Assembly (NCBI GenBank): GCA_025774865.1
Contig: JALGZO010000447.1
Coordinates: forward strand, 1-8,193
Direction: 5' to 3'
Source: a bacterium
Lineage (GTDB): Bacteria > ARS69
Length of the DNA stretch: 8,193 nt
In this document: positions 1-7,712 of the stretch, piece by piece
Numbering within the stretch: position 1 is the first letter of the stretch
Layout of the letters: each line of letters begins with the position of its first letter
Position numbers and translations under genes: made by a program
Notes under the pieces: generated by a model
The model's database searches: none
Told to the model about the DNA's origin: nothing
Seen by the model: the letters and a program-made list of their open reading frames with translations, nothing else

Positions 1-846
1 GATGACGTCCGCTCCATTGTCCACCGCGAATCGGATCCCCCGGGCGACCGAGACGGAGGTCCCGATTCCGTCCGAGTCGAGAACCCTCACGGCCATGAGA
101 CTCGCTCCCGGGGCAACCGCGCGGACCAGGCCCGCCACGTGCGTTCCGTGGCCGGCGCCCTCGTCGATCAGTCCGTCCTCGTCCTGGTCGATGCCGTCGC
201 GCTCGTCCATCGCGTCCGCATCGTCGTCGATGAAGTCCCAGCCGACGGGGGAGACGGAGGCCGCGAGATCGGGATGCGTGGCGTCGATTCCGGTGTCGAG
301 GATCGCGACGGTGACGCCCGTTCCCAACGCCGTCCCGTGGGCGGTGGGGACCCCGATGCGATTCAATGCGTCCTGGTCCTCGACGTCCTGCGAAACGTGG
401 TCACCCTCGTAGAACGGCAGCGTTCCTTGGTGCGTCTCGGGGGCCTCGGCGAGCCAGTTCGGGTGAGCCGACATGCAGTCTCCGGCTTCCAGCATGTCGG
501 TCGCCAGACGGTGTACCGATTGCTCGTCCGGGATATCGAGGAGAGCGTGCCCGACACCCTCCACCTCGAGAATCGTGCTCGTTCCCCAGGTGGCGTTCAG
601 CGTCGGTAAGTCCACCCCGTCCGAGGTCCTCACGACGATTTGCCCCGGAACGGCGGGTCCGAGCGGGCGTTCAAAGCCACCGGCCGACGAGCCTCCCACG
701 TTCAGGCGCGGGCGGTTCAGCGACTGGGGCTCGGAGTCGTCCGCCGGGCCGGCGAGCAGCCCGGAGCCGCGCTCGGTGCATCCACCGAGGGCCAGCGACG
801 TGGCGATGGCGAGGATCCCGACCAGCACGAGTGCGGGGCGATTCAT
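1..846 (-). CDS. S8 family (subtilisin-like) serine peptidase, secreted lipoprotein, partial (C-terminus beyond window)
   Basis: A secreted endopeptidase of the subtilase family; 282 N-terminal residues are visible and the frame is open to the left edge. Residues 1-22 form a lipoprotein signal (MNRP, then a hydrophobic stretch) ending in the lipobox LGGC, with Cys23 as the lipidated residue, so the protein is probably anchored to a membrane facing outward. Residues about 61-140 resemble the propeptide of fervidolysin-like subtilases (PAVPGQIVVR at 65-73). The catalytic domain starts near 172: AILDTGID carries Asp184, and GHGTHVAG carries His233. The catalytic Ser lies outside the window. Just before the His motif, residues 217-229 hold an Asp-rich DxDxDG loop, probably calcium binding. 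The visible part ends in NGADVI, the usual run-up to the conserved N-(M/L)-S-(L/F)-G strand. An in-frame ATG at 936 would add 30 residues and bury the signal peptide; the start at 846 has an AAAGGAG site 10 bases upstream and is preferred. It lies downstream of the CHAT gene on the same strand. Confidence 0.93.
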   Translation of the reverse strand, partial: MNRPALVLVGILAIATSLALGGCTERGSGLLAGPADDSEPQSLNRPRLNVGGSSAGGFERPLGPAVPGQIVVRTSDGVDLPTLNATWGTSTILEVEGVGHALLDIPDEQSVHRLATDMLEAGDCMSAHPNWLAEAPETHQGTLPFYEGDHVSQDVEDQDALNRIGVPTAHGTALGTGVTVAILDTGIDATHPDLAASVSPVGWDFIDDDADAMDERDGIDQDEDGLIDEGAGHGTHVAGLVRAVAPGASLMAVRVLDSDGIGTSVSVARGIRFAVDNGADVI

Positions 847-994: not shown

Positions 995-3859
995 TTACGA
1001 ATCTCTGATGCGAGTTCCCGCTCCTCCTACGAGGAGAAACGGGGACCAGTAGTAGGGGTGCTCCAGCTCGTCGCGGAGCTCGAGCATGGCATCGCGCAGC
1101 GTCACGTCGATTTGACCGCCGCGCCGCAGCCCATGGTAGAACCGGATCATGAGCTTCGCGGTCGCCCGGTCGTCGACGGGCCACAAGCTCACCAGAAGCG
1201 ATCCCGCTCCAGCGTAGAGGAAGCCGCGAGAAAGGCCGACGAGCTCGTCGCCCGCCCCGACCCAGTTGCGTCCACTCTGACAGGCGCTGATGCATACGAG
1301 CTTCGCGTCGAGCTTCAGTCCGTAGACTTCGTGGAGGCTCATCCAGCCGTCCGCGAGTCGGAGTGACGAGAACGCGGGGTCGTCGCCGCGGAACATCCCG
1401 TGCGTCGCGACGTGAATCACGTCCGCCCCTGGCGCGGCGCGCCGGAACTCCCGCGCCGACGCCTTCGCGCCACGGAGCGTGCGACCGCGGCGAAAGGTGC
1501 GGCGCACGGCGTCGATTTCGACGCGCGCCTCCGGAATCGACTCATCGGTCACCTCGACGGCGAGGGCCCGGAGATCGGTTCCACCACTGGCCCTCCCGGG
1601 GGACGTCGGAGTCTCCCGGAGGTAGCGCCGGCAACTCGCGCTCGGGAGGTGCGACAGGACATGACGATCGAGGACCCGGTCGCCGTTGCCGAGCGGCAAC
1701 GATGCGAAGGGGAGCGAGTGCAGCGGCCCGTGCGGGATCACGATGACGCGACCGTCCGGCACTTGCAGCGGTTTCCACACGCGCTCCGCCAGGAAGCCCA
1801 AGTGATGGTCGACGCCCTGACGCCAAGACCTGGCGCGGGTCTCCGTGTACTCGCGCCCGTAACAGCCTTTCTCGATGTGGAATCGCAGACGGGACAACGC
1901 TTTCGTGATCTCCGCGCTCGTGGCCGGAAGGGGAACTCCCCGGGCTTCGCCGCGCCGTACCACGAACGCCCAGGTTCCGCGCGGACTGCAGAAGTACTCG
2001 ACGAGCGTGGTGTCCTCGGCCAGGTCGTGCTGGGCCTCCTCGAGCGTCACCGTCTCTCCGCCGGCCAGCGCCCCGAGACGCGCGTTTCGGCGCTGCAAGC
2101 GACGCATCAGGTCGGTGATCTCCGACTCGTGCGCCCGGACCCGCTCGGACGGAGCGGTCAGGTGCAGGTCGCGGCGCTGTCCTGGGGACGAGCGATCGAA
2201 GCCGGTGAGTCGGTTGATCTCGGCCCGGAGGTTCTCCATCCGGGCGAGCAGGCGGACCGCCTTGTCGTCGTCGGCGGCGGCGGGCGCGAGCCGGCCCGCG
2301 AGCAGATCCACGAGAGAGCGCGATCGTCCGCTCTCCACGACCGCGAACGCATCCGCCACCGCGCGTCGGCCGCCACGCCGCAGGATCGCCGAGGCGAGGT
2401 CCGCGTAGACCGGCGCCTTGTCCTCCGCGAAGCTCACTTTGAATTCGTCGATCCCGATGCGCCCCCGGATCGACTCGATCTTCTCGATCGCCTGGCGGTA
2501 GTGACGGGTCGCGACGCCGGCGGCTCCTCGGGCATCCGCCAGGCGCCCACGCAGATGGCAGAGCCGAGCCCCGAGCCACGGAGAGGGGACCCGCCGGAGA
2601 ACGGTGGCCGCTCGGTCCACCTCGCCCTTCGCCCGCGCCGCGCGTCCGGTGTCCATCTCGAGCGACGCCAACCGGAGCCGCGCGGCGCCCTCGTGCAGCT
2701 TCATCCGCTCGGCCTCGAAGACGTCGATCGCCCGCCGCAGGTAGCGGCGCGCAGCGGCGGAGTCGCCCCGTCGAGTCGCCACCTCCGCCAGATAGACCCC
2801 CGTGACCGCTTCGGAGGATGAGTTGCCTTCCTCGCGAAAGGACCGCCGGGCCAGGGCCAGCAGAGCCTCCGCCTCCCGGTCCGCGCGGAGTCCCAGCGCC
2901 GCAATCCCTTCGAAGAGAGCGGCGCGCGCGCGCTCGAATCGCAGGCCGATTCGCTCGGCGAGGCGGCGCGCGCTCCGCGCGAGGTCCCGAGCCGGAGCGA
3001 AGCGGTTCACTTCGAGCAGGAGCTCGGTGAGATCGATGTCGGTGAGCGTGATCAAGTGGTCGTCCTCGAGCTCCTCGAACGTGTGCCGAGCGCGGTCGAG
3101 GGTGTCGTACGCGCGGCCGTAGTCCCCCTTCTGGAAGCGGATGTAGCCGAGGTTGAAGTCGGCGAACGCACCGACCCGTCGCTCGCCGGTCTCGTCCGCC
3201 TCCCGCCGCACGTCCTCGTACAGGTGTTGCGCGGAGTCCAGCTTTCCGAGGGCTGAGAGAGCGCTCGCGCGGTTCAAGCGGATGATTCGAAGCATGTCGG
3301 GATCACCGATGCGTTCGGCGACGCGGAGGGCGCGATCGTACCTTCGCAGGGCCGTCGACGGCTTTTCGATGCGGTGGTGAATGTTCCCCAGGTTGAGATC
3401 CATGCGGGCGGCTGCGGCGTCTTGCCCCGTGGCGACGAGGTCGCGTCGTGCCCGCTCACCGAGCTTCAGCGCCTCGCCGTAACGGCCCTGATAGGTGAGC
3501 ACGTTGACCCGGCCGATCGCGATGCGCGCGACATCGGCTGTCCGCCCGAGCTTCTGATAGGCGCTGGCGGCGTCCCGATAGCAGTCGAGCGCTTCCTGGT
3601 TCCGGAGCAGCGCCGCCAGCGCATGAGCCCTGACCCAGCGGGCGCGGGCGCGCTCCGCCGGAGCCTCGGCGGAGTGCGCGACGAGCTCGACACGCTCCGC
3701 CGCCTCCAGGGCATCGCGGGCGTTCACGCGGAGCAGACGCAGGACCTCGGACGCCATCGGCTCAACGGCGTCACGCAGCTCCTCGGCCGACGAGGCGTCG
3801 ATCAGTCGGCGAACGGATTCTCGATCGGCGGAGGAGAGGACGGATTGCACCAGCTGCAT
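995..3859 (-). CDS. TPR repeat protein with C-terminal CHAT (caspase-like) peptidase domain
   Basis: A 954-residue cytoplasmic protein with no signal peptide or membrane segment. Residues about 70-420 are tandem TPR-type helical hairpins (for example LNLGNIHHRIEKPSTALRRY near 155-174 and FNLGYIRFQKGDYGRAYDTL near 235-254), a protein- or ligand-binding superhelix. Residues about 457-522 are the helical linker typical of CHAT proteins (IEKIESIR, then VVESGRSRSLVDLLAG). Residues about 615-950 are the CHAT domain, a clan CD cysteine peptidase fold: VIPHGPLHSLPFASL at 706-720, the histidine motif HVATHG with His820, and the cysteine motif CISACQSG with Cys860. The dyad is intact, so an active protease is expected; family members cut specific partners once the TPR part is triggered. 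The start lies 7 bases after the stop of the zinc-finger gene, with only a weak GAG ahead of it, which suggests translational coupling. The substrate cannot be named from sequence; the adjacent anti-sigma factor is a candidate. Confidence 0.94.
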   Translation of the reverse strand: MQLVQSVLSSADRESVRRLIDASSAEELRDAVEPMASEVLRLLRVNARDALEAAERVELVAHSAEAPAERARARWVRAHALAALLRNQEALDCYRDAASAYQKLGRTADVARIAIGRVNVLTYQGRYGEALKLGERARRDLVATGQDAAAARMDLNLGNIHHRIEKPSTALRRYDRALRVAERIGDPDMLRIIRLNRASALSALGKLDSAQHLYEDVRREADETGERRVGAFADFNLGYIRFQKGDYGRAYDTLDRARHTFEELEDDHLITLTDIDLTELLLEVNRFAPARDLARSARRLAERIGLRFERARAALFEGIAALGLRADREAEALLALARRSFREEGNSSSEAVTGVYLAEVATRRGDSAAARRYLRRAIDVFEAERMKLHEGAARLRLASLEMDTGRAARAKGEVDRAATVLRRVPSPWLGARLCHLRGRLADARGAAGVATRHYRQAIEKIESIRGRIGIDEFKVSFAEDKAPVYADLASAILRRGGRRAVADAFAVVESGRSRSLVDLLAGRLAPAAADDDKAVRLLARMENLRAEINRLTGFDRSSPGQRRDLHLTAPSERVRAHESEITDLMRRLQRRNARLGALAGGETVTLEEAQHDLAEDTTLVEYFCSPRGTWAFVVRRGEARGVPLPATSAEITKALSRLRFHIEKGCYGREYTETRARSWRQGVDHHLGFLAERVWKPLQVPDGRVIVIPHGPLHSLPFASLPLGNGDRVLDRHVLSHLPSASCRRYLRETPTSPGRASGGTDLRALAVEVTDESIPEARVEIDAVRRTFRRGRTLRGAKASAREFRRAAPGADVIHVATHGMFRGDDPAFSSLRLADGWMSLHEVYGLKLDAKLVCISACQSGRNWVGAGDELVGLSRGFLYAGAGSLLVSLWPVDDRATAKLMIRFYHGLRRGGQIDVTLRDAMLELRDELEHPYYWSPFLLVGGAGTRIRDS

Positions 3860-3866
3860 CTCGAAC

Positions 3867-4496
3867 TCACGAAATGGGGTCGACGTCGGGGATGGAGAAC
3901 GTGGTCAGTTTCTCCGCGGTGATGACCCGCAGCGTCAACTTCCTGACGTTCCGGATCTCGACGGAGAACTCTCCGAGCTCATCCGTTTCGGTCTCGTGCA
4001 TGTCGAAGTCGTCCCCGGTGACGAGAAGACGAGCGTTGGCCAGTGGCCGCGGCTCGGGCTCGAGCAGAGACAGCTGGCCCGTGAGGAGGCCCCCGCTCGC
4101 GATCGGCTCGAGCTGCAGGTCGAGCTCGACGCTTTCCGACTCGAAGCGAACGCGCCGCGAGTCAGCCACGTGCCGCGTTCCGGCCCACCCGAGCTCCGGA
4201 CCGCCCGCGCTGTCCCGGACGAGACGAGCCACTTCCTCGCGAAGGCCGGCGCACCACTCGCGAATGCGCGCCTTCAGGTCGCCCTCCGAGTAGAGACGAA
4301 TCGCTCGCTCGACCCACTCGGCGGGTGGCTCGGGAGTCCGGTCGGCCCGCATCGCCTGCATGAGCGCCTCGTACTGCCGGAGGCGCTTCGCGCAATCGGG
4401 GCAGCCCTCGTGCAGGTGACTGGCGACGCGGGCGGCGCCACGGCCGGACTCTCCTTCAAGGAGATAGCCGATCAGCTGCGAGTCGGTCGGATGCAT
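3867..4496 (-). CDS. Zinc-finger (zf-HC2-like) putative anti-sigma factor, soluble, with C-terminal beta-rich domain
   Basis: A 209-residue protein encoded between an ECF sigma factor and a TPR-CHAT protease. Residues 1-45 carry a zinc-binding anti-sigma-type motif, HLHEGCPDC: His27 or His29 with Cys32 and Cys35. Spacing from His27 is H-x4-C-x2-C, one residue longer than the classical H-x3-C-x2-C. Most anti-sigma factors of this type have a transmembrane helix after the finger; none is present here, so the protein should be cytoplasmic. Residues about 60-95 are helical. Residues about 115-205 are beta-rich and resemble carboxypeptidase-regulatory / transthyretin-like domains (LLTGQLSL, PLANARLLVTG, then TDELGEFSVEI and LTLRVI). 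Role inferred: binding and silencing the neighbouring sigma factor, with the beta domain sensing or docking. An AGGAGG site lies 6 bases before the ATG. The finger is clear; the anti-sigma role rests on context. Confidence 0.82.
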   Translation of the reverse strand: MHPTDSQLIGYLLEGESGRGAARVASHLHEGCPDCAKRLRQYEALMQAMRADRTPEPPAEWVERAIRLYSEGDLKARIREWCAGLREEVARLVRDSAGGPELGWAGTRHVADSRRVRFESESVELDLQLEPIASGGLLTGQLSLLEPEPRPLANARLLVTGDDFDMHETETDELGEFSVEIRNVRKLTLRVITAEKLTTFSIPDVDPIS

Positions 4497-4502
4497 GGTC
4501 GT

Positions 4503-4508
4503 CCTCCT
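4503..4508 (-). promoter_or_regulatory. Ribosome binding site of the zinc-finger gene
   Basis: AGGAGG on the minus strand, 6 bases before the ATG at 4496. It is a strong site and fixes that start. It sits in the 101-base gap after the sigma factor gene. No terminator is seen in that gap, only the 8-base palindrome CCGGCCGG near 4567-4574. Confidence 0.75.
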
Positions 4509-4597
4509 CTACCGGCCGACAGACGGGAGCGCGATTCGTCTGATACGCGTCGATGAGACAACTTGCCCGGCCGGAGGGTGTCCGGGGCGGATTCGTG

Positions 4598-5200
4598 TCA
4601 CTTCTCCTCCAGTTTCGTGAACTCGGTCAGCAACTGTTGCAGGCACCGTGCCCGCGTCGGGCCGATGGAACCGATCGGGATCCCCAGCTCCTGACTCACC
4701 GACTCGTACGACGGCGGCTGATCCGACGAATGATAGAAGAGCGACGTGAGGAGACGACGGCAACGTGGGCCGAGGCGGAGCAACGCCTGCCGCACCTGGT
4801 GCTGGTTCTCGATCTCCTCCAATGCGTCGGACGGCAGGGGATCGCCGGACGGTAGCCGCCCGAGCGTCTCTTCGGAGTCGCTCAGCTCGGCCGACTGGCG
4901 GCGCCGGCGGATCGTGTCGATCGTCAAGCGTCGGGCGGTCGTCACGAGCCAGGCCCGCACTCGGGCGGGGTCCCGGATCGATCCGATCCGCTCCGCGAGT
5001 CGTGCGAATGTCTGGTGGAAGACCTCCTCCACCTCGTCCGCCTCGAGGCCGGCGCGGCTGGGCACCGCGTATACGAGCCGGCGGTACCGTCGGACCAACG
5101 TGGCCCACGCGCGCTCGTCGCCGTCGATGCAGAGCGGGACGAGCTCGGCGTCGGGGGTGTCGTCGCGGATCGAACTGGCGGTACGGGTGCGTTGGGTCAC
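4598..5200 (-). CDS. RNA polymerase sigma factor, ECF (sigma-70) family
   Basis: A transcription initiation factor of the two-domain ECF kind, 200 residues from the GTG at 5200. Region 2 spans about 30-100: AWATLVRRYRRLVY, then EADEVEEVFHQTFARL (the usual DxEDxxQxxF core) and AWLVTTARRLTIDTIRRRR, which contacts the -10 element. Region 4 spans about 135-190: LLRLGPRCRRLLTSLFY, then YESVSQELGIPIGSIGPTRARCLQQL, a helix-turn-helix for the -35 element with the GPTRARCL variant in place of the common VKSRLxRA. The linker at 101-133 is acidic. An upstream TTG at 5263 is in frame, but it lies upstream of a TATGAT box at 5252-5257 and has no ribosome site. The GTG at 5200 has GGGAG 5 bases ahead and is preferred. 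It is the first gene of the minus-strand operon with the zinc-finger protein and CHAT protease, and is probably controlled by the former. Confidence 0.92.
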   Translation of the reverse strand: MTQRTRTASSIRDDTPDAELVPLCIDGDERAWATLVRRYRRLVYAVPSRAGLEADEVEEVFHQTFARLAERIGSIRDPARVRAWLVTTARRLTIDTIRRRRQSAELSDSEETLGRLPSGDPLPSDALEEIENQHQVRQALLRLGPRCRRLLTSLFYHSSDQPPSYESVSQELGIPIGSIGPTRARCLQQLLTEFTKLEEK

Positions 5201-5257: not shown

Positions 5258-5397
5258 GCGCAAGACCGCGACACCTCACGAGCCCGCGATCGGCACGGCT
5301 CCGGAGTGCCTCCGTATCACGCGTCGGATCTCCCCGTCCGTGCCATTGCGGTGACCATGGAACGACGTAGGAACCGGGCAACCACCCGGGGGGTGAC

Positions 5398-5522: not shown

Positions 5523-6050
5523 TTGTTGGTGCACCCGTCTCTCGGCGGCGCATCCCAGCGGGAGCCGAGCGTCAGCGTTCGCACCATCGGCGGCGTCCAC
5601 CGCGCCCGAGCCACCCTCAGGATCGATGCGGCGCCGGCCCGCGTGTGGGAGGTGCTCTCGGACTACGAGCGCCTCGACGATTTCGTTCCAGGGATCACGC
5701 GCAGCCAGGTACGCGGTGTCGCCGAGGACGGCTCGATCCTGGTAGAGCAAGCCAGCCGCGGGCGTTTTCTCTTTCTCAGCCGAACGGTGGAGCTCGTGAT
5801 CGCCATTCGCGAGGAGCCGCCGAGCCGAGTCCGGTTTCGGCAACACGAGGGCCCGTTCTCCGTGTACGAGGGGAGCTGGGAGATCGCGCGCGACGGGGGA
5901 GGGTCGCTCGTGACGTTCGCGATCTCGGTCCGCCCGGACTTCTTCGCGCCCGGATTCGTCGTCCGGGGAGAGTTGAAGGATCGGTCGAAGCGCTCGCTGG
6001 AAGCCGTCGCCCGGGAGGTGGCGGCTGCGCGACCGGCGGCGCCGGAGTAG
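5523..6050 (+). CDS. SRPBCC / START-like (polyketide cyclase, COQ10-type) protein, probably exported
   Basis: 175 residues from the first standard start, TTG at 5523. Residues about 22-165 form one SRPBCC (Bet v1-like, helix-grip) domain: ARATLRIDAAPARVWEVLSDYERLDDFVPGI is the typical opening, followed by SRTVELVIAI, RVRFRQHEGPFSVYEGSWEI and the C-terminal helix RSKRSLEAVAREV. The family binds lipids or other hydrophobic ligands, and some members cyclize polyketides; no ligand can be assigned here. The TTG has no ribosome site, and the frame is open upstream to 5397. Residues upstream of and across the TTG read RLVGFVAAALLVHPSLGGASQ after several arginines, a good Sec signal peptide. The true start is therefore probably upstream, near 5433, where an ACG follows a strong Shine-Dalgarno (about 205 residues). 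It is separated by 78 bases from gltX on the same strand and divergent from the sigma operon. Confidence 0.85.
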   Translation: MLVHPSLGGASQREPSVSVRTIGGVHRARATLRIDAAPARVWEVLSDYERLDDFVPGITRSQVRGVAEDGSILVEQASRGRFLFLSRTVELVIAIREEPPSRVRFRQHEGPFSVYEGSWEIARDGGGSLVTFAISVRPDFFAPGFVVRGELKDRSKRSLEAVAREVAAARPAAPE

Positions 6051-6128
6051 CCTCCCTCTTTACGCGCGGACCGGTCTCGTTCTACCCTGCCCAATTCGCT
6101 CCCCCCAATCCCTCGATCGAAGACTGAC
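6051..6128 (+). promoter_or_regulatory. Short intergenic gap ahead of gltX with a weak promoter candidate
   Basis: 78 bases between the SRPBCC stop and the gltX start. TTTACG (6059-6064) and TACCCT (6083-6088), 18 bases apart, are weak -35 and -10 matches. No stem-loop terminator is seen, so read-through from the SRPBCC gene is possible. The ribosome site for gltX is poor (only GAAGA near 6118). Confidence 0.2.
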
Positions 6129-7712
6129 ATGGTTCGCACCCGTTTCGCTCCGAGCCCCACCGGATACCTCCACATCGGCGGCGTTCGCACGGCGCTCTTC
6201 AACTGGCTGTTCGCACGCCGTCACGGCGGCCGGTTCGTACTGCGCATCGACGATACCGACGAGATGCGCAACGTGGAGGCCGCGCTGCAGCCGATCCTCG
6301 ACGGCTTCCGCTGGCTCGGGCTCGACTGGGACGAGGGTCCCGAGGTCGGCGGCGACTTCGGACCGTATCGCCAGTCGGAGCGGACCGAGCGCCACCGGGA
6401 GGCGGCCCGCACACTCGTGGAGAGGGGGCTCGCGTACACGGACTACGCCACTCCCGACGAGATCCAGGCCGAGCGCGGGGCCGCGCAGGCCGAAGGGAAG
6501 CGGTTCCTCTACAGCCGGGCCTGGATGGCGAAGACTCCCCAGGAGCGCTCGAAGTTCGAGTCCGAGGGCCGCAAGGCGCTCGTCCGGCTCGAGATGCCTC
6601 GCGAGGGCACGTGCACGTTCGTGGACGCGGTCCGCGGCGAGGTCTCGTTCGACTGGGCCCGCGAGCAGGACCACGTGATCCAGCGCGCGGACGGGTCGTG
6701 TCTCTATCACCTCGCGAGCGTCGTCGACGATCACGACATGGAGATCTCCCACGTGATCCGGGCGGAGGAGCACCTGTCGAACACGCCGCGCCAGATCTTC
6801 ATCGCCGAGGGTCTCGGCTTCGAGCCGCCGACGTTCGCGCATCTGCCGTTCGTAGCCGCGCCCGGAGGCAAGAACAAGCTCTCCAAGCGCAAGCTCGAGC
6901 AGTACCGGAAGAACCCCGACTTCGCGAGGGTGTGGGAGCATGGCAACGCGATCGCCGCCGCGATCGGCCACGACGCGTCCGCCGACACGTTCAATCCGGT
7001 GATCGTCGATTTCTACGAGACGGTCGGGTACCTTCCGGGCGCGCTCTTGAACTATCTGCTGCTTCTCGGCTGGTCGCTCGACGACAAGACCGAGTTCTTC
7101 ACCCGAGACGAGATGGTGCAGCACTTCGGACTGGAGAGGGTCGGGAAGGGGGCAGCGAGCTTCGATCCGGCCAAGCTCGCCGCGTTCCAGGATCACTACA
7201 TGCAGGAGCTCCCGCTCGCGACGAGGGTGGAGATGACGCTGACGTTTCTCGAGGGGGCGGGGCTCGTGGCGGCTCCGGTCGCAGAGGCGGACCGCGATCG
7301 CGCGGGACGCATCGTCGAGGCGGCGGGAGACCGAATCAAAGTGGCCGGGGACGTGCTCGACTACCGACACTTCTTCCGGCCCGCCACCGAGCTCGCCTGG
7401 GACGACAGGGCGTTCGCGAAGCGACTGGAGAAGCCCGACGCGGCGGCGCGACTGGAGCGGCTGCGCGAGAGATTCGCGACCGCGGACGAGTTCGAGGTCG
7501 GCGCCGTCGAGGAGATCGTCCGAAGTTTCGTCGAGGCGGAGGGCATCAAGATGGGCGACATCATTCACGCGCTCCGCGTGGCGGTCACGGGAACGGCCGT
7601 GGGCTTCGGCATGTTCGAGACGCTCGCGATCCTCGGCCGGGACGAGTGCCTGGCCCGCATCGACGCGGCGCTCGCCCGCGTCTCGGAGCGGAAAGCGGCG
7701 GGGTCGAGCTGA
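6129..7712 (+). CDS. gltX: Glutamate--tRNA ligase (GluRS)
   Basis: Charges tRNA-Glu with glutamate using ATP, in the cytoplasm; class Ib aminoacyl-tRNA synthetase, 527 residues. The Rossmann catalytic core opens with [21 protein letters not shown] (5-25), where HIGG at 15-18 is the class I signature in its common GluRS form, followed by RIDDTD at 39-44. The tRNA acceptor region includes [30 protein letters not shown] (193-222). The second signature is KLSKR at 250-254. Between it and [17 protein letters not shown] (300-316) are about 45 residues where short bacterial enzymes have about 15, which makes this an extended GluRS. The cysteines of the zinc-binding module of the E. coli enzyme are absent (TDYATPDEI near 104-112). 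The helical anticodon-binding domain follows to the end, with the late motif [13 protein letters not shown]. The start ATG at 6129 gives the exact family N-terminus. The stop is one base before the glnS start, so the two genes are probably co-transcribed and coupled. Confidence 0.97.

Follow-up and report, generated by a model that had tools for sequence, protein, structure and literature searches.

How might an extracytoplasmic function (ECF) sigma factor be controlled by soluble proteins encoded beside it? The question is raised by a locus at the start of contig C451, whose first 8193 bases are hereafter the window; the contig comes from a bacterial assembly whose 785 contigs total 4.7 Mb (93% complete, 8% contaminated). 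Three minus-strand open reading frames encode, in order of transcription, an ECF sigma factor, a soluble anti-sigma factor and a protease with tetratricopeptide repeats (TPR) and a CHAT domain, separated by gaps of 101 and 7 bases. An earlier note, made from the letters of this DNA, had described these co-directional genes and gaps correctly; its three-gene unit stands as far as it goes but is incomplete, as a fourth co-directional gene, for a subtilase, was overlooked because it has no stop within the window. On balance, the operon is probably a soluble protease-gated sigma switch, in which CHAT would cut the anti-sigma protein near Arg108 and free the sigma factor. Its four genes are the following.

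4598–5200, minus strand: ECF sigma factor (Sigma70_r2, TIGR02937 and a family profile).
3867–4496, minus strand: soluble anti-sigma factor of 209 amino acids (48-member profile, AlphaFold2 (AF2) model and hydropathy).
995–3859, minus strand: TPR–CHAT cysteine protease of 954 amino acids (Pfam, AF2 model and structural matches).
1–846, minus strand: start of a gene for an exported (lipobox) S8 subtilase, 282 amino acids visible (Peptidase_S8), the gene being cut by the contig end.

In the proposed mechanism, the N-terminal domain of the anti-sigma protein would hold the sigma factor until a signal binds or reshapes the TPR solenoid and turns the CHAT protease on. CHAT would then cut the anti-sigma loop around Arg108, between the sigma-binding half and a C-terminal beta-sandwich, the latter being the part likely recognised by CHAT; removal or loosening of the leftover N-terminal fragment would free the sigma factor to transcribe its regulon. 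Sigma binding, cleavage and release are each proposed here from homology and precedent. In Craspase, the N-terminal domain of Csx30 binds and inhibits CASP-sigma, and Csx29 cuts a flexible loop of the Csx30 C-terminal domain (PMC10028731, PMC9729208). In the CalpL/CalpT/CalpS system, a Lon-SAVED protease cuts the anti-sigma factor CalpT bound to its ECF sigma factor (PMC11417357). In the window, the corresponding roles fall to three separate soluble proteins, which makes the same logic the best reading. That CHAT might cut the anti-sigma protein had already been suggested in the earlier note, and a conserved unit, a soluble inhibitor, an intact catalytic dyad and the precedents of Csx29/Csx30/CASP-sigma and CalpL/T/S now speak for it; what has to be given up is the zinc finger as a conserved core of the inhibitor.

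The product of the first gene is the sigma factor that had been claimed (Pfam Sigma70_r2, E-value (E) 3e-10; TIGR02937, E 1e-23), and its family profile matches the structures of SigW, SigH and RpoE. The gene runs from a GTG start at 5200 to 4598; a longer frame from a TTG at 5263 is less likely, and a TATGAT preceding the gene backs the GTG5200 start weakly at most.

Four features can be mapped on the anti-sigma protein.

4251–4496, minus strand: anti-sigma domain, residues 1–82, with helices 5–17, 21–29, 33–51 and 59–82 (AF2 secondary structure; NCBIfam).
4392–4418, minus strand: putative zinc ligands His27, Cys32 and Cys35 in the motif HLHEGCPDC (sequence and alignment of relatives).
4158–4211, minus strand: flexible loop, residues 96–113, with the invariant Arg108 (codon 4173–4175; low predicted local distance difference test score (pLDDT) and conservation).
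3870–4157, minus strand: C-terminal carboxypeptidase-regulatory-like beta-sandwich, residues 114–209, no peptidase (CarboxypepD_reg; fold).

Taken singly, the window anti-sigma sequence falls under the Pfam and NCBIfam cut-offs; NCBIfam anti-sigma models match it weakly at residues 11–64, and 14 of the 48 family members match. The profile built from all 48 finds the solved domains of RsiW (5wuq, E 2e-5) and 3hug (E 1e-4), both of class I, and matches the N-terminal domain of DdvA weakly (E 0.05). The class I anti-sigma domain is defined by a three-helix bundle plus helix 4 (PMC7406223), an arrangement reproduced by the AF2 model (pLDDT 89), in which four N-terminal helices are followed by ten strands of a beta-sandwich. 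RsiW and SigW, the matches of the anti-sigma and sigma profiles, respectively, are partners in one solved entry, 5wuq. Together, these results support assignment of the middle gene product to the anti-sigma fold family, and binding of the sigma factor would be expected by homology and precedent. Hydropathy reveals no membrane segment in any of the 48 aligned members, the window protein included, in line with the soluble candidate that the earlier note had seen.

That note had also called the protein a zinc-finger anti-sigma factor, of which the family holds and the finger as its core does not: the conserved parts are the Arg loop and the beta-sandwich. His27, Cys32 and Cys35 are the top residue in 82, 83 and 78%, respectively, of the non-redundant relatives having a letter there, and about a third of relatives have lost the zinc site while retaining the Arg loop and C-terminal domain. 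The window motif is Hx4Cx2C, as opposed to the class I motif Hx3Cx2C, which itself occurs in roughly half of that class.

The zinc site bears on a different design, in which the anti-sigma protein would itself sense the signal, through zinc or thiol chemistry or a ligand of the beta-sandwich, and the sigma factor would drive CHAT and the subtilase as effectors. RsrA and ChrR, soluble zinc anti-sigma factors that act as redox sensors, provide its precedent; the window protein is likewise cytoplasmic and has a class I anti-sigma domain bearing a putative zinc site, but its family differs in having a C-terminal beta-sandwich, an adjacent CHAT protease and a dispensable zinc site. Also consistent with this design are the frequency of the zinc motif among soluble class I anti-sigma factors (72%; PMC7406223), the co-directional CHAT and subtilase genes downstream, and the occurrence of some CHAT genes with no sigma gene next to them. 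Against it stand the loss of the zinc motif just described, CHAT precedents that place the protease upstream of the sigma factor, and a gapped 4+4-mer search at 41 sigma genes, which found no shared ECF-type promoter upstream of the operon above the level of shuffled sequences. It is the less likely of the two designs but a real alternative, and its simpler form, with the sigma factor just turning on a CHAT effector, had been raised in the earlier note. An autoregulatory promoter, considered as possible support, was dropped on the same search, a result that still allows autoregulation.

Returning to cleavage by CHAT, the loop between the two domains of the anti-sigma protein is where the proposed cut would fall. 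Arg108 is the sole fully invariant column of the alignment, present in 48 of 48 aligned and 41 of 41 non-redundant members; of another 12 members, more distant ones, 11 have it too. Residues 101–110 form the sole low-confidence block of the AF2 model, with a mean pLDDT of 55, and this low-confidence loop parallels the loop of Csx30 that is cut in Craspase (PMC10028731). An invariant Arg in a seemingly flexible interdomain loop thus predicts a site of cleavage, or of docking and recognition. Arg108 is more safely regarded as part of a site read by CHAT or by the sigma factor than as the P1 residue, which would be a guess. Beyond the loop, the Pfam model CarboxypepD_reg matches 7 of the 48 members, and the C-terminal part of the family profile matches carboxypeptidase-regulatory-like stretches of NOMO2 and other proteins. 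This domain has a common immunoglobulin (Ig)/macroglobulin-type fold, in which no catalytic signature was found.

The candidate protease has two main parts.

2465–3721, minus strand: TPR solenoid, about residues 47–465, the presumed sensor (Pfam TPR_12; AF2 helical hairpins).
1025–1789, minus strand: CHAT protease domain, residues 691–945, with His820 (1400–1402) and Cys860 (1280–1282) (Pfam; invariant dyad).

Pfam detects CHAT at residues 691–945 with E 8e-52 and TPR_12 with E 6e-23. The catalytic pair His820 and Cys860, placed correctly in the earlier note, occurs in every one of the 58 CHAT relatives that could be aligned, a frameshifted copy and a truncated one having been set aside. With a His–Cys dyad and a TPR solenoid, the protein has the hallmarks of the TPR–CHAT proteases of clan CD, and proteolytic activity is predicted from its sequence. 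The AF2 model (pLDDT 91.5, predicted template modelling score (pTM) 0.90) has as its best structural matches Csx29 (Z 34.4, root mean square deviation (rmsd) 6.5, 502 residues) and separase 5fc2 (Z 29.8, rmsd 3.0, 318 residues), and the CHAT-domain family profile finds Csx29 (E 3e-16) and DdvA (8rot, E 8.5e-10). The TPR part also resembles the ligand-binding solenoids of Rap, NprR and MalT, a likeness to be read knowing that TPR superhelices match each other easily.

Several observations weigh against cleavage at Arg108 as the means of sigma release. The low local pLDDT of the loop may be partly due to alignment gaps at residues 100–101, and Arg108 could alternatively be a docking or sigma-contact residue. 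Separase D2151, which reads the P1 Arg, maps by spacing from a conserved Trp to about position 901, an Ala; with a non-acidic equivalent here, Arg specificity has no backing from the S1 residue. Asp897, near the S1 position, is kept in 48 of 50 sequences, and as it is presumably present in separases too, it proves nothing on Arg specificity; it was considered as the separase-type Arg-reading residue and dropped for a mismatch in spacing. Csx29 has Lys where separase has D2151, and it cleaves after Leu, not Arg (PMC9729208). The sigma-proximal fragments of Csx30 and CalpT remain bound after the cut, so cutting alone may not free the sigma factor, and further degradation of the bound fragment is thought necessary in both systems (PMC10028731, PMC11417357). 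A mirror-tree comparison, in which divergence of the C-terminal half of the anti-sigma protein has a partial rank correlation of 0.47 with that of CHAT and 0.26 with that of the sigma factor, is weak support for this half as the one facing the protease, its values carrying shared ancestry; the corresponding tree of the N-terminal domain was discarded as too noisy.

A further difficulty comes from two homologues of about 160 amino acids (L123, 7115–7588, and L124, 4759–5232), in which the anti-sigma domain is almost gone and a sigma gene is still adjacent. What all members share is the C-terminal domain, which persists even where the sigma-binding part has nearly disappeared, as would be expected if the CHAT cut served to free or retarget the beta-sandwich and control of the sigma factor were secondary. 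The C-terminal part of Csx30 is likewise a suspected effector in Craspase. This role is improbable for the window protein, given that the Ig-like fold of its beta-sandwich is a common one, that no catalytic signature was seen in it and that most loci still have a sigma gene alongside.

The gene set was counted around 53 CHAT genes of the family that had at least 1.5 kb of upstream sequence, with partners sought within 2.5 kb; the sample was picked by similarity to the window CHAT family and describes that family, not CHAT proteins at large. An ECF sigma gene lies near 43 of them, an anti-sigma gene near 45 and both near 42. At least four groups at phylum level share the order sigma, anti-sigma, CHAT, usually with a subtilase, and this bears out the conservation across phyla on which the earlier note had made its proposal depend. 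The host genome itself contains the module twice more, complete on contig C227 and cut by a contig end on C537. Within the small phylum to which the host is assigned, a six-member profile detects the anti-sigma protein in four of five genomes, and the fifth (G003) has a divergent sigma–anti-sigma–CHAT–subtilase set. In a scan of named genomes, records labelled Gemmatimonadetes, Kuenenia and Phycisphaerales had the identical order and Krumholzibacteriota a divergent one. Searches centred on other genomes placed the module in additional groups at phylum level, which comprise 47, more than 250, and 1 genomes. The three plasmid CHAT genes examined stand in other contexts, with no anti-sigma match.

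Where the genes have come apart, the Arg motif persists. In family f76 (genomes G079, G221 and G350), the CHAT–subtilase pair has no adjoining sigma gene and the anti-sigma gene lies elsewhere in the genome; retention of an anti-sigma protein with the Arg motif, although CHAT and subtilase stand apart from the sigma gene, is counted in favour of cutting by CHAT. Anti-sigma genes at three loci (L169, L170 and L171) are distant from the CHAT–subtilase genes of their own genomes and retain a FALRG-type loop.

Other layouts also occur. In a Krumholzibacteriota locus (L020, 6518–13467), two sigma/anti-sigma pairs flank one CHAT–subtilase pair, the first pair being divergent from CHAT, and elsewhere (L101, 374–7814) a single CHAT gene lies between two sigma/anti-sigma pairs, of which the second is on the opposite strand. 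The module is present in two tandem copies in L081 (4356–14501), where one CHAT is split across frames and its main frame has no intact catalytic part. A different layout, found in L076, L085 and L028, consists of a sigma gene, a conventional membrane-spanning zinc-finger anti-sigma gene and then TPR–CHAT; the TPR–CHAT proteins of L028 and L085 have an apparent signal peptide, hence a location outside the cytoplasm is possible for them.

The subtilase, judged from gene neighbourhoods, usually belongs to the conserved unit. In the window its gene begins at 846, about 150 bases beyond the CHAT stop, and leaves the contig at position 1; the visible part matches Peptidase_S8 (E 9e-18), has a signal peptide with the lipobox SLALGGC and shows the subtilisin Asp and His motifs. 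Full-length equivalents lie downstream of CHAT in relatives, at 38 of 53 CHAT genes with adequate downstream sequence. The N-terminus is hydrophobic in every one of 30 subtilases viewed closely; a lipobox can be recognised in 10 of them, and a simple motif finds the full Asp-His-Ser set in 21.

A subtilase and a CHAT protein beside a sigma gene recall the ECF54 group, for which a review proposes that the sigma factor itself is subject to proteolysis; applied here, CHAT or the subtilase would degrade or process the sigma factor directly. The reported ECF54 neighbours, with carboxypeptidase, subtilase and CHAT domains, overlap with the window unit, a match of context only, but the group is described as having no anti-sigma factor, whereas the window unit has one (PMC8999054). 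The presence of an anti-sigma domain removes the reason for proposing direct proteolysis of the sigma factor, and the subtilase, having an export signal, should not meet it. Moreover, we suspect that the 'carboxypeptidase' of the ECF54 context is the CarboxypepD_reg-like domain of a window-type anti-sigma protein. Direct sigma proteolysis is therefore highly improbable in the window operon.

Returning to the protease-gated switch, one of the closest known systems is Craspase, which likewise encodes together a TPR–CHAT protease, an ECF sigma factor and a two-part cytoplasmic inhibitor, and whose Csx29 the window CHAT matches in profile and fold. The window unit differs in the zinc-finger-type anti-sigma domain of its inhibitor and in the added subtilase. 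By the curated NCBI model for Csx29 (NF041237), the window CHAT scores 19.6 bits against a cut-off of 300, and a search of the host genome with the model for the type III-E CASP-sigma (NF041236) gave nothing over the cut-off, the window sigma factor being absent from the matches. No short-spaced direct repeats are present in the window, the contig ending just past the operon, and a host-genome search for Csx31, run with no positive control, was empty. Thus, no Cas7-11, Csx31 or repeats were seen adjoining the operon, Cas7-11 not having been searched for and the contig end being near. The anti-sigma protein was also considered as a Csx30 homologue and this was rejected, its profile giving none at E 10 and no Csx30 being among the Foldseek matches listed; a distant relation is possible.

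CalpL/T/S resembles the window unit in that a cytoplasmic protease acts on an anti-sigma factor, the cut being a predicted one here, and differs in that the protease is a type III CRISPR Lon-SAVED protein activated by cyclic tetra-adenylate (cA4), not a TPR–CHAT protein. DdvA/DdvS of Myxococcus xanthus also joins an ECF sigma factor to an anti-sigma factor and a TPR–CHAT module. DdvA fuses anti-sigma, membrane segment and TPR–CHAT in one transmembrane protein, a combination found in none of the window genes, whose parts are separate and soluble, with an intact dyad; the active site of DdvA is reportedly incomplete, according to a 2024 paper. The module is thus best described as a predicted protease-controlled sigma/anti-sigma switch that is neither Craspase by the curated tests nor a DdvA-like fusion.

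Among the systems that we found, those with demonstrated release of a sigma factor through cytoplasmic cutting of its anti-sigma factor, by a dedicated protease encoded next to it, are all linked to CRISPR. A wider proposal, which we advance tentatively and at less than an even chance, is that CRISPR-independent cytoplasmic sigma switches, in which a soluble two-domain anti-sigma factor is cleaved at a conserved Arg loop by an active TPR–CHAT enzyme, are widespread in little-studied phyla and are a possible source of the Craspase sigma arm and of the fused DdvA type. If true, a common chromosomal four-gene version would represent a general signalling design, would point to a natural substrate for many orphan CHAT proteases, a large class, and to the region in which the cut is predicted, and would supply a regulator to sigma factors thought to have none, possibly including ECF54.

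A reading of the locus as anti-phage defence was dropped, as the only PADLOC match was a weak one, of the CHAT domain to BovA, and the window is without visible defence genes. On the plus strand at 5523–7712 lie ordinary divergent genes, encoding an SRPBCC/polyketide-cyclase-like protein and a glutamyl-tRNA synthetase.

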